Shown one piece after another: positions 39,821 to 45,425 of a DNA stretch of 64,000 nt. The notes beneath the pieces were generated by a model, which did no database searches, had not been told where the DNA came from, and saw only the letters and a list, made by a program, of their open reading frames with translations. Both the position numbers and the translations under genes were made by a program. The stretch covers positions 1-64,000 of the forward strand of contig CANRFJ010000011.1 in the NCBI GenBank assembly GCA_947629865.1, read 5' to 3'. Position 1 is the first letter of the stretch; the number at the start of each line of letters is the position of its first letter. The stretch comes from an uncultured Lachnospiraceae bacterium (GTDB taxonomy: Bacteria > Bacillota > Clostridia > Lachnospirales > Lachnospiraceae).

Positions 39821-41026
39821 CTAAAATCCCACGCGGATGCGGGTGATAAAGGTGTCAAAACCAGCTATGGTATCATTGAAAGTCTTTTCCTTCATCTTGC
39901 CCGTAATAAATCCAAACTCGTCCGGAATACCGGCGTCCACAGGCTCTATATCGTCAAATTCGGCCTCGGCCTTCGCTCTCTCCGAAGCGCTTATGCGGAC
40001 AAAGAACCGGTTCTCCATCTCGTCCATCGGCGCCACCGCCTGCTTTTCGTCTTCCCAGATCGTCATGACATTTACGTTCATGTGCTTCACGGCGTCTACC
40101 ACATCCGAGACAACCGCGCTGGCTGTAGCCTCTTTACCGGCTCCCTTGCCGTAGAACATCACGTCCCCCAGCATATTGCCGGTGACGCAGATTGCGTTAA
40201 AGACGTCGTTGACAGCGAAAAGCGGATTGTCGCTCTTTATCATCTGGGGAGCCACCATAGCGTATAACTTCTCCCCCGATTTCCTGCTGGAGCCCAGAAT
40301 CTTGATCGCCGCTCCCATCGCCTTTGCATATTGGAAATCCGTGGCAGTTATCTCTGTGATACCCTCGGTATAAATATCTTCATAATCCACCTGCTGCCCG
40401 TAGGCTAACGATGTGAGAATCGCGATTTTGCGGCAGGCGTCATAGCCCTCCACATCCGCCGTCGGATCCTTCTCCGCGTAGCCGAGCCTCTGCGCCTCCT
40501 TCAATACATCGGAAAAATCCGATCCCTCGTTGGCCATTTTGGTGAGGATATAATTGGTCGTGCCGTTCAAAATTCCATTGATCTGCTCAATGCGGTCGGC
40601 GGTGAGGCTCTGGTTCAGAGGGCGGATAATCGGAATACCGCCGCCCACACTGGCCTCAAAAAGGAAGTTCACACTCCGGCTCTTGGCAATGTGCACCAGT
40701 TCAGCGCCATAGGCGGCCACCAGCTCCTTGTTGGAGGTGCACACGCTCTTGCCGGCAAGAAGCGCCTGCTTCACAAATTCGTAGGCCGGTTTGGTTCCCC
40801 CCATGGTCTCCACAACAATGGAAATTTCCGGATCGCCGGCTATTACGCTGTAGTCATGCACCACCTTGCTCTGCACAGGATCTCCCGGAAAGTCCCGCAG
40901 ATCCAGAACATATTTTACCTCTACCTCCTGCCCCGCGCGCCTTGCGATTACCTTGGCATTGGTATTCAAGACCTCCACGACGCCGGAGCCCACCGTTCCA
41001 TATCCTAACACTGCTATCTTAATCAT
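39821..41026 (-). CDS. hom: Homoserine dehydrogenase
   Basis: A 401-aa enzyme reducing aspartate semialdehyde to homoserine (threonine/methionine branch). The NAD(P)-binding loop is VLGYGTVGSGVVEVL, the catalytic region GILNGTTNYILTKM and EAQRLGYAEKDPTADVEGYD. The C-terminal 60 residues (NRFFVRISASERAKAE onward) look like a short ACT domain, suggesting feedback control by threonine. The ATG lies within the last codons of cheW, with GGAGG six bases upstream. Confidence 0.97.
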   Translation of the reverse strand: MIKIAVLGYGTVGSGVVEVLNTNAKVIARRAGQEVEVKYVLDLRDFPGDPVQSKVVHDYSVIAGDPEISIVVETMGGTKPAYEFVKQALLAGKSVCTSNKELVAAYGAELVHIAKSRSVNFLFEASVGGGIPIIRPLNQSLTADRIEQINGILNGTTNYILTKMANEGSDFSDVLKEAQRLGYAEKDPTADVEGYDACRKIAILTSLAYGQQVDYEDIYTEGITEITATDFQYAKAMGAAIKILGSSRKSGEKLYAMVAPQMIKSDNPLFAVNDVFNAICVTGNMLGDVMFYGKGAGKEATASAVVSDVVDAVKHMNVNVMTIWEDEKQAVAPMDEMENRFFVRISASERAKAEAEFDDIEPVDAGIPDEFGFITGKMKEKTFNDTIAGFDTFITRIRVGF

Positions 41027-41489
41027 CTTCGTCCTCCATATTGTCTACCAATTCAGCAACTTTTTTCCATTCTTCCGCATTGAGAAGTTTATCCGGACTG
41101 AGTACCAGAACCAGATCCGTCCCACACCGCGCCACAAAATCCATGTAGTCGGCGCGCTTGGCCTGCGCCAGGGGCGGGAAGTTCTGGGCATTTGCCCCAT
41201 CTACCTTAAAGATACCGCCCAGACCGTCTGACACAAGAGCCAGTTTGCCATAGCTGGTGCGCATAACAATGTATTTTGTTTCCACTGTCCTCTCCGCAGG
41301 CGGAAGAAGCAGACACTTTTTGATGTCCACAACAGGGATCTTCTCACCCCGGATTACCACGAAGCCCATGACATATTCCGGTCTGTCCGGCGGCAAAAGC
41401 ATATCTCGGTAATTTTCGATTCCCTGCATCTTCTCCACTTCAATACCATATTCCTTCCCACTCAGAAAAAATGCAACAATTTCTTTCAC
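41019..41489 (-). CDS. cheW: CheW-like chemotaxis coupling protein
   Basis: A 156-aa single CheW domain: EIVAFFLSGKEYGIEVEKMQGI, PPDRPEYVMGFVVIRGEKIPVVDIKK, KLALVSDGLGGIF. It would couple receptors to CheA. GTG at 41489 is the likely start (8 bases after GGAGG); an ATG five codons upstream has no site. It overlaps hom by 8 bp. No other chemotaxis gene is in this unit. Confidence 0.88.
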   Translation of the reverse strand: MKEIVAFFLSGKEYGIEVEKMQGIENYRDMLLPPDRPEYVMGFVVIRGEKIPVVDIKKCLLLPPAERTVETKYIVMRTSYGKLALVSDGLGGIFKVDGANAQNFPPLAQAKRADYMDFVARCGTDLVLVLSPDKLLNAEEWKKVAELVDNMEDEDD

Positions 41490-41510
41490 ACGGCATACCT
41501 CCATCTGAAC

Positions 41511-42618
41511 TTATCTGCCATTTATCCATTTCAGATACGCATTCATAAACAAATCAATATCTCCGTCCATTACCGCGGAGACATTTCCCGTCTCCATCTC
41601 TGTCCGATGGTCTTTGACCATGGTGTAGGGCTGCATGACATAGGAGCGGATCTGACTGCCCCAGCCGATCTCCCTGACCTCACCGCGGATATCCGCCTCC
41701 TTCTCAAGGTTTTCCTGCTCCCGCAAAAGAAGGAGTTTTGCCTTGAGCATCTGCATCGCCTTGTCCTTATTCATGTGCTGAGACCGCTCGTTCTGGCACT
41801 GCACTACGATTCCGGTCGGAAAATGGGTGATGCGGATAGCGGACGAAGTCTTATTGATATGCTGTCCGCCGGCCCCGCTGGAGCGGTAGGTGTCAATGCG
41901 TATGTCCTCATCGTTGATCTCAATGTCGATATCTCTCTCGATATCCGGCATCACATCACAGGACACAAAGGACGTCTGCCTCTTTCCCGCCGCATTAAAG
42001 GGGGAGATGCGCACCAGGCGGTGAACGCCGTGCTCGCTCTTTAAGTAGCCGTATGCATTATCCCCGCGGATCTCCAGCGTCACGGACTTTAAACCCGCCT
42101 CATCTCCGTCCAGGGAATCCAGCACCGTCACGCCAAATCCCCTCTTGTCCGCCCATTTTTCATACATGCGGCAGAGCATCTCCGCCCAGTCGCAGCTCTC
42201 GGTGCCGCCGGCTCCCGCATGGAGAGTCAGGATAGCGTTCTCCGAGTCATGCTCGCCCGTGAGCAGTGTCGTTATGCGGAGATCGTCAAACGCGCGCCGG
42301 AACTCCTCAAATTCCTGACGGACTTCCGGTACCAGGGACGCGTCTCCCTCCTCATTGCCCATCTCAATGAGCGTCATAATGTCCTCATAGGAGGCGCTCA
42401 GGCTGTCGGCGCGCTCAATCACGCTCTTTAAGTCTTTTGCTTCCTTCATGGAGGCGCTTGCTTTTTCCGCGTCCTCCCAGAAATCCGGCGCTTCCATATT
42501 GCGCTCTAATTCCTCTACCCTCAGTTTCTTGTCTTCTAAGTTAAAGTGAATCCCTTACTTCCAGAAGCGGCTTTTCGAAACTGCTCAATTCGATACGAAT
42601 ATTATCCAGTTCTACCAC
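41511..42618 (-). CDS. prfB: Peptide chain release factor 2, programmed +1 frameshift at UAA
   Basis: RF2 of about 368 aa encoded in two frames. Frame one starts at GTG 42618 (site AGGTGGTG) and reads (M)VELDNIRIELSSFEKPLL...RDSL up to TAA at 42541-42543. Reading continues after a +1 slip on CTT-T into the frame ending at 41511: NLEDKKLRVEELERNMEAPD. An internal Shine-Dalgarno-like AAGGG sits upstream of CTT-TAA-C. GAGGQHINKTSSA carries the catalytic GGQ and ISPFNAAGKRQ the stop-recognition SPF. The in-frame stop is UAA instead of the near-universal UGA. Downstream of secA, as in other Firmicutes. Confidence 0.95.
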
Positions 42619-42684: not shown

Positions 42685-45246
42685 TTAGCGGCCGCAGCAA
42701 TACTTATATTTTTTCCCGCTTCCGCATGGACACGGGGCGTTTCTGCTGATCTTATCCGACTTTCTCACAATCGGCGCGTTGGCGGAGTCGTCCTTATTTG
42801 TACCCGTAACCTCGGCTACCTGCTCCCTCTCCACCTTCTGCTCAATGCGGACATGCATAAGCGTCTTTACCGTCTCCTCACGAATTGCCTCCGTCATGCC
42901 GTTGAACATATCGTAACCCTGAAGGCGGTACTCTACCACCGGATCCCGCTGGCCAAACGCCTGCAGTCCAATTCCCTGACGCAGCTGATCCATGTCGTCT
43001 ATGTGATCCATCCACCGGCTGTCTGTCACGCGGAGAATAATGACGCGCTCAATCTCTCGGATCTGTTCCTCATCCGGAAACTCCGCCTCTTTGCTCTCAT
43101 AGAAGCGCATCGCCGCCTCCTTCAGTTTCTGGATCAGGCCGCTCTTAGTCAGATTGCTGAGCTCCCCGCCATCCAGCGTGACCGGCTCCAGCGGAATGAC
43201 CGGCAGAAGGATCTCGTTGAGTTCATCTAAATCCCACTCCTCCGGCTGCTGGTCGTCGCCGATGACGGCGTTGATATATTTCTCAACCAGTTCGTCAATC
43301 ATACCCACAATGGTATCCCGCATGTTATTGCCGTCCAGCACCTTCCGGCGCTCTGCATAGATAATCTCTCTCTGCTCATTATTTACCTGGTCGTACTCGA
43401 GCAAGTTCTTGCGGATACCATAGTTGTTGCCCTCGATCTTCTTCTGGGCCCGCTCGATAGCCTTGCTCAGCATCTTGTGCTGAATCTGCTCGCCCTCCGG
43501 CATTCCCAGCGAGTTGAACATCTGCATAAGATTCTGCGATCCGAACAGACGCATCAGATCGTCCTCCAGGGAAATATAGAATTTGGATTCACCCGGATCT
43601 CCCTGACGTCCGGAACGTCCACGTAGCTGATTGTCAATACGTCTTGACTCGTGCCGCTCCGTGCCGATGATCTTGAGGCCGCCCAGCTCTGTCACGCCCT
43701 CGCCCAGTTTAATATCCGTACCACGTCCGGCCATGTTGGTGGCAATGGTGACGGCTCCCCGAACGCCGGCGTCCGCGATGATCTCCGCCTCCATCTCGTG
43801 GAATTTCGCATTGAGCACTTTGTGCGGAATCCCCCGTTTTTTCAACAGTTGGGACAACTCCTCCGATGCGTCGATGGTAATGGTTCCGACCAACACCGGC
43901 TGCCCCTTCTCATGGCTCTCCACAATGTCCGCCACAATCGCATTCAGTTTTTCCCGTCTGGTCTTGTATACGGAATCCTCGTGGTCAATACGCTGTACCG
44001 GAAGGTTGGTAGGAATCTCCACTACGTCCATGCCGTAGATCTCACGGAACTCCTTCTCCTCCGTGAGAGCCGTACCGGTCATACCGCACTTTTTAGTATA
44101 TTTATTGAAGAAATTCTGGAAAGTGATGGTGGCCAGCGTCTTGCTCTCCCTCTTTACCTTCACATGCTCCTTTGCCTCGATGGCCTGATGCAGTCCGTCG
44201 GAATAGCGGCGGCCCGGCATGATACGTCCGGTAAACTCATCTACGATTAATACCTGGTCGTCCTTTACCACATAGTCCTTATCAAGGTGCATCAGCGCAT
44301 GGGCCCGCAGAGACAGGTTGACGCAGTGCTGGATCTCCAGGTTCTCCGGATCCGCCAGATTTTCCAGATGGAAAAATCGCTCCACCTTCTTGATTCCCTG
44401 CTCCGTCAGGTTGACTGTCTTCTCCTTCTCATTGGCAACATAGTCGCCGGTCTCGTTGCTGTCCTCCTTCATCAGGATATCCATTTTGGATAATTCCTTC
44501 TCCGTTCCCTTTTTCAACTGGCGCACCAGATTGTCGCAGGCCTCATAGATCTTTGTGGATTTTCCGCTGGAGCCAGAAATAATCAACGGCGTCCTGGCCT
44601 CGTCGATCAGCACCGAGTCCACCTCGTCCACAATGGCATAGTGCAGTTCCCGCTGCACTAACTGTTCCTTATAAATCACCATATTGTCGCGGAGGTAGTC
44701 AAAACCAAGCTCGTTGTTCGTCGCATAGGTAATATCGCAATTATAGGCCTCGCGCCGCTCATCATTATCCATACTGTTGAGGATAACGCCTACTGTCAGT
44801 CCCAGAAATTCATGAATCTGGCCCATCCACTCCGCATCACGCTTTGCCAGATAATCATTGACGGTAACGATATGGACGCCTTTTCCCTCCAGCGCATTCA
44901 GATACGCCGGAAGGGTGGATACCAGCGTCTTTCCCTCACCGGTACGCATCTCCGTGATACGTCCCTGGTGCAGGATCACGCCGCCGATTAACTGCACCCG
45001 AAAGTGGCGCAGTCCAATCGTCCTCTTGGACGCCTCCCTGACTACAGCGTAGGCTTCGGGCATGATGTCCTCCAACGTCTCTCCCTCTGCCAGCCGTCTC
45101 TTAAATTCCTCAGTCTTAGCTCTCAGCGCATCATCTGAAAGTTTCTCCATCTCCGGTTCGAGCGCCTCGATTTTATCTACGATAGGAATAACCCTTTTGA
45201 CCTCTCGCTCACTGTGAGTCCCAATTACTTTACTTAATAATCCCAT
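42685..45246 (-). CDS. secA: Preprotein translocase ATPase SecA
   Basis: An 853-aa motor for Sec export. It contains the DEAD-like nucleotide site ([18 protein letters not shown]), [29 protein letters not shown] and [11 protein letters not shown]. The C-terminal zinc SEC-C motif is [17 protein letters not shown]. The ATG at 45246 follows GGAGAG; the upstream frame lacks a site. Downstream of hpf. Confidence 0.98.
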
Positions 45247-45425
45247 TTTGTCACTCTCCAATAATTTTTCATTGCGCACGGGACGGTATTGCCCCAAATT
45301 ATTTTACCATTAGTTGGAACAGGTTTCAACTAGTATTTTCACCCGACCGCGTTTCCATATCGCCCGACTGCATTTCCATAATATGTACGCTCACGCGATT
45401 TCGGGCGGACAGATGTCCGGACATC

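Follow-up and report, generated by a model that had tools for sequence, protein, structure and literature searches.

The prfB gene of an uncultured Lachnospiraceae bacterium carries what appears to be a working +1 frameshift cassette whose internal stop is UAA, and this UAA site was found in 16 of 36 readable species of its genus. The prfB frameshift is the textbook example of self-sensing, in which a protein gauges its own activity at a stop codon that no other factor reads; in the classic sensor this stop is UGA, read by RF2 only. UAA, which looks fixed in groups of related bacteria, may mean that the switch is less specific to RF2. We consider it reasonably probable that the UAA cassette works as an attenuator tuned to total terminating capacity, that UAA replaced UGA in an ancestor, and that at least two losses of the frameshift followed.

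Structure and conservation of the UAA cassette

The window analyzed is a stretch of 64,000 nt from an uncultured Lachnospiraceae bacterium (assembly GCA_947629865.1, contig CANRFJ010000011.1, positions 1-64,000, forward strand), whose draft genome comprises 2.64 Mb in 51 contigs and is 98% complete. A preliminary description had reported a CTT-TAA-C slippery site in prfB, giving no strand. The sequence bore out this site and placed it on the minus strand, where all parts of the cassette are intact (GTA AGG GAT TCA CTT TAA C). According to the ORF list and the sequence, ORF1 (42541..42618) starts with GTG at 42618 and has 25 sense codons (MVELDNIRIELSSFEKPLLEVRDSL), the last being CTT, followed by the in-frame TAA and then C. 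The SD-like element TAAGGG (42552..42557) lies 5′ of the slip codon CTT (42544..42546; shift to TTT), with the spacer codon TCA (42547..42549) between them; the internal stop UAA occupies 42541..42543 and the C after it is at 42540. ORF2 (41511..42542), in the +1 frame, begins with AAC (42542-42540), encodes the RF2 body of 343 aa and has its stop codon at 41513-41511. The presence of SPF and RSSGAGGQ identified the product as RF2. The window therefore has the parts that define a prfB +1 programmed-frameshift cassette: a short ORF1 with an in-frame stop, an RF2 body in the +1 frame, a CTT T slip site followed by C, an SD-like element just upstream, and an RF2 product recognized by SPF/GGQ. It departs from the classical RF2-only sensor in that the internal stop, UAA, is not one read by RF2 only. 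A secA-like gene (42685..45297, minus strand; named by eye from its translation) lies upstream of prfB, and B. subtilis has the same secA-prfB order (PMC8073009). A CheW-like gene, likewise named by eye from its translation (41019-41504, minus strand), begins 6 bases past the prfB stop codon.

The AGG of TAAGGG presumably sits at the same place as the AGG of the E. coli SD-like element. The predicted SD duplex, calculated with an assumed anti-SD sequence, was weaker here than at the commonest site of the family (-5.8 vs. -10.7 kcal/mol). No 16S 3′ end was found in the draft genome. In the family sample described below, TAAGGG occupied the SD position in 5 of 16 UAA sites and in 11 of the 98 sites with UGA (p 0.048, with no correction for kinship). 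tRNA-Leu(GAG), which slips in E. coli (PMC13245932), was absent among the 17 tRNA loci scanned, but 8 of 10 tRNA matches longer than 80 bases lay outside those loci, so that this absence carries no weight.

A first pattern tried on the 39 genomes of the genus matched 3 of them, once in the window and twice in places without an RF2 match, and a protein search was used instead. Of the 39 genomes searched in the window's GTDB genus, prfB was readable in 36; two of the others had partial RF2 matches and one had an RF1-like match only. Sixteen of the 36 readable species had the UAA site, 20 had a continuous frame without frameshift (hereafter frameless), and none had UGA. The core common to all 16 UAA species was GAAGTAAGGGATTCACTTTAACTTA; the CTT T slip site, the C after the stop and TAAGGG were identical in 16/16.

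Each of the six codons ahead of the stop (GAA GTA AGG GAT TCA CTT) was represented by a single codon in all 16 UAA species, as were only 2 of 18 other ORF1 codons examined. The 20 frameless species used between 3 and 8 codons at each of the same six positions. In ORF2, 222 columns had one residue (not Met or Trp) in the 16 UAA species, and 8 of these columns were single-codon throughout; two of the 8 were the site's own AAC and TTA, leaving 6 of 220 other columns. The site codons were thus frozen in 8/8 cases vs. 6/220 for the other ORF2 columns, which is beyond chance. Freezing at the nucleotide level suggests that frameshifting is needed to make RF2 in these species, and to judge from sequence, prfB here is probably a working +1 frameshift cassette. 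Codon constraint alone shows neither feedback nor which factor is sensed. The recurrence of the site in 16 species, with no UGA in any of the 36, confirmed the UAA base, and anatomy together with conservation supported the earlier view that the cassette, with its upstream element and CTT slip codon kept, looks functional.

Frequency of UAA sites in the family and beyond

UAA at the prfB site is already published and is a known rare variant. Surveys of 1998 and 2002, as related in PMC12421855, had UGA in all sequences but one, and the motif was given as YTT_TRA_C by Antonov in 2013 (PMC3711429). In the account of Prince et al. 2025 (PMC12421855), 8,164 motif-bearing genomes had UGA (98.6%) or UAA (1.4%), with no UAG reported. 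The UAA form is described there as occurring across several phyla and conserved between strains of one species, yet as poorly tolerated and without fixation in clades; the title of a supplementary figure calls UAA randomly distributed. Our literature search found no paper on repeated UAA origin with genus-level uniformity in the window's family, and none that combined prfB, Lachnospiraceae and frameshift.

An even sample of Lachnospiraceae was searched (160 genomes, 156 with RF2), and 149 prfB genes were read, one of the remainder being truncated and six unlisted. Ninety-eight had UGA, 16 had UAA, and 35 had no frameshift. UAA accounted for 16/114 (14%) of the frameshift sites, or 14/112 without the two genomes of the window's own genus. 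One UGA site, L224, was the sole one of the 98 with A, not C, after the stop (CTT TGA A). All frameshift users had UAA in the window's genus (16/16) and in two other genera (11/11 and 4/4 readable), which had been chosen because a member had UAA; in one of these, 11 of 13 genomes searched were readable. Outside the window's genus, the 14 UAA sites of the sample need 14 changes on the RF2 tree, at least 8 of them forced by starred branches. These changes and the uniform genera indicate that UAA arose repeatedly in the family and became uniform in some genera. What is added to the published record is genus-level uniformity, a high share in the family and an order of UAA followed by loss, which is at odds with the description of UAA as not fixed in clades.

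A broad contig scan for UAA sites gave at least 120 matches; of the 120 listed, 116 were classed as UAA and 4 had no RF2 match. Among the matches listed, 76 of the 116 UAA sites bear the family name Lachnospiraceae, and the cultured species with a UAA site include Eisenbergiella porci and Blautia parvula. When R was allowed at the second stop base, the scan pattern had a match in only 1 of 209 genomes from other families in a sample of the class, as against 95 of 114 sites of the window's family; the taxonomic shares of the broad scan are therefore not a census. The family pattern matched 276 of 397 genomes, chance places included, and no count was drawn from it. One of the 116 listed matches, L100, was rejected as a false match without ORF1. 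UAA sites were seen in at least 8 Veillonellaceae records of Megasphaera, Anaeroglobus and Colibacter (L069, L099, L101, L109, L130, L131, L137 and L159). Five sites from Phycisphaerales among the matches listed (L140, L152, L171, L172 and L173) had CTT TAA C, an ORF1 ending in IRDSL and RF2 in the +1 frame; their upstream bases (ATCCGNGACTC type) contain no purine-rich SD-like element, which leaves these UAA shift sites lacking the usual stimulator.

Probable change from UGA to UAA and loss of the frameshift

All evolutionary results come from one gene tree, that of RF2, from which the first three ORF2 residues were omitted. The window's genus grouped with its sister genus g98, represented by one genome with UAA (SH-aLRT 93, branch not starred). 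The frameless species of the genus formed two clades and a single row. Forcing them into one clade was rejected (AU p 0.011; careful tree of 49 rows), which indicates at least two losses after a UAA ancestor. A four-state Markov model gave UAA a probability of 0.997 at the genus ancestor and 0.89 at the ancestor shared with g98. When regain of UAA by insertion was allowed, the likelihood was unchanged and the rate was estimated as zero. Allowing regain of UGA as well improved the fit by 3.8 log units, so either the gene tree or the view that the frameshift is not regained is imperfect; this gain probably reflects error in the tree, or transfer in other parts of the family. The loss rate was higher from UAA than from UGA, a difference that was not significant (lnL -136.85 vs. 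-138.26).

The residue at the former slip site agreed with this order. Among the frameless species of the genus, 18 of 20 had Asn, vs. 4 of 35 frameless genes of the family sample, in which Asp prevailed (25 of the 35). Asn is what deletion of one T from CTTTAAC would leave (in-frame Leu-Asn), and Asp is what CTTTGAC would leave. Asn also occupied the former slip site in frameless RF2 genes from other genera (L238, L277, L288 and L280), three of which form one well-supported clade. These genes may be further UAA-derived losses or reflect a later change from Asp to Asn. The RF2 gene tree thus supports a change from UGA to UAA before the genus radiated, retention of UAA since then, and loss of the stop in at least two sublineages.

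AT-rich mutation as the cause of UAA was not supported, the sign being opposite: prfB GC3 averaged 0.61 in the UAA species (n 15), above the 0.506 of the UGA species (n 98; p 0.0075), with 0.577 in frameless species (n 35). The link between GC3 and UAA was not significant with independent pairs (8 pairs on starred branches, median p 0.625), and none is claimed. Stop usage was also compared in up to 20 kb around prfB. Of the species in the genus, 14 with UAA, the window's among them, had 31% UGA stops and 12 frameless ones had 46%; the share was 29.5% for 14 other UAA species and 15% for 20 species with a UGA site. These figures are a lead only, since the UGA-site set was chosen by RF2 nearness and has low GC and the gene finder was crude.

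Which factor the cassette may sense

That RF1 would also read the internal UAA, as the preliminary description argued, is established for this codon, and the same genome has an intact RF1 gene: RF2 gave a single match, and the other match (36% identity) was RF1 with PAT and GGQ. The window's RF2 has Ser at the position that presumably corresponds to Thr246 of E. coli K-12. RF2 with Ala or Ser246 is described as sharing UAA with RF1 (PMC5373646). The +1 slip at CUU U competes with termination (PMC13245932, PMC5009743), and slip-site tests in which UAG replaced UGA gave consistent values (PMC5009743), so that the slip itself does not require UGA. In the proposed mechanism, the ribosome would pause when CUU occupies the P site and UAA the A site, and the SD-like element and the C that follows the stop would favor this pause. 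A +1 slip from CUU to UUU, in competition with termination, would place AAC in the A site and yield full-length RF2. A shortage of RF2 alone would be expected to slow termination less at UAA than at UGA. Because both factors read UAA, the loop is probably desensitized to RF2 alone, by analogy with the E. coli and B. subtilis literature, and a feedback answering to the sum of RF1 and RF2 may fairly be inferred on the same footing. The cassette would then be an attenuator tuned to total UAA-terminating capacity, with RF2-specific feedback weakened.

An error or a decayed gene might be suspected in a draft genome; the relatives refute it, because the same site with frozen codons recurs in 16 species, and its probability is negligible. 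RF2 might instead be made from the in-frame ATG at 42497, which opens an ORF of 328 aa, leaving the cassette vestigial, but the cassette is frozen at synonymous sites whereas frameless species drift there, and we regard this as very improbable. Insertion of T into a frameless CTT AAC gene could have regained the switch, since relatives with CTN AAY and no frameshift lie around the UAA clade within the genus. However, the one genome of sister genus g98 also has UAA, the regain rate was estimated as zero with the likelihood unimproved, and UGA relatives have matching SD-like and spacer bases; this origin also has little chance of being correct.

The most probable alternative is that RF2-specific feedback is fully kept, UAA being read mainly by RF2 and working like UGA. 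Prince et al. argue, from work suggesting that most taxa rely mainly on RF2 to read UAA, that the switch would remain sensitive to RF2 (PMC12421855), and RF2 was about six to nine times as abundant as RF1 in an E. coli profiling table (PMC5373646). Conservation of the UAA site agrees with such feedback. It is opposed by the intact RF1 and by B. subtilis, where, in the experiments described, neither RF1/PrmC nor RF2 depletion queued ribosomes at UAA and rsbV with a UAA swap was indifferent to depletion of either factor (PMC8073009). We therefore consider fully kept RF2-specific feedback rather unlikely and prefer the attenuator of total capacity.

Long-term UAA users offer a natural test of whether the switch serves RF2-specific feedback, the total capacity for termination or attenuation alone. 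The UAA lineages also suggest that this regulation, whose loss is known to have occurred many times, may disappear in the order UGA, UAA, loss. We tentatively propose that UAA could be a stable clade-level state of the switch, in which RF2 output follows the RF1 and RF2 total or is simply attenuated, as well as a stepping stone to loss that leaves an Asn footprint.

The cassette resembles the canonical prfB frameshift (CUU UGA C) of E. coli and B. subtilis in its short ORF1, SD-like element, CTT T, C after the stop and RF2 in the +1 frame, and differs in the stop UAA, which RF1 also reads, and in TAAGGG instead of AGGGGG. Compared with frameless prfB of the sister species, it is the same gene, and Asn occupies the slip site in 18/20 of those species; however, their frame is continuous and the SD-like and slip codons drift. 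It is the same variant, CTTTAA, as in the UAA cassettes of Prince et al. (PMC12421855), which are described there as not clade-fixed, whereas here UAA is uniform among the frameshift users of three genera and makes up 14% of the family-sample sites.
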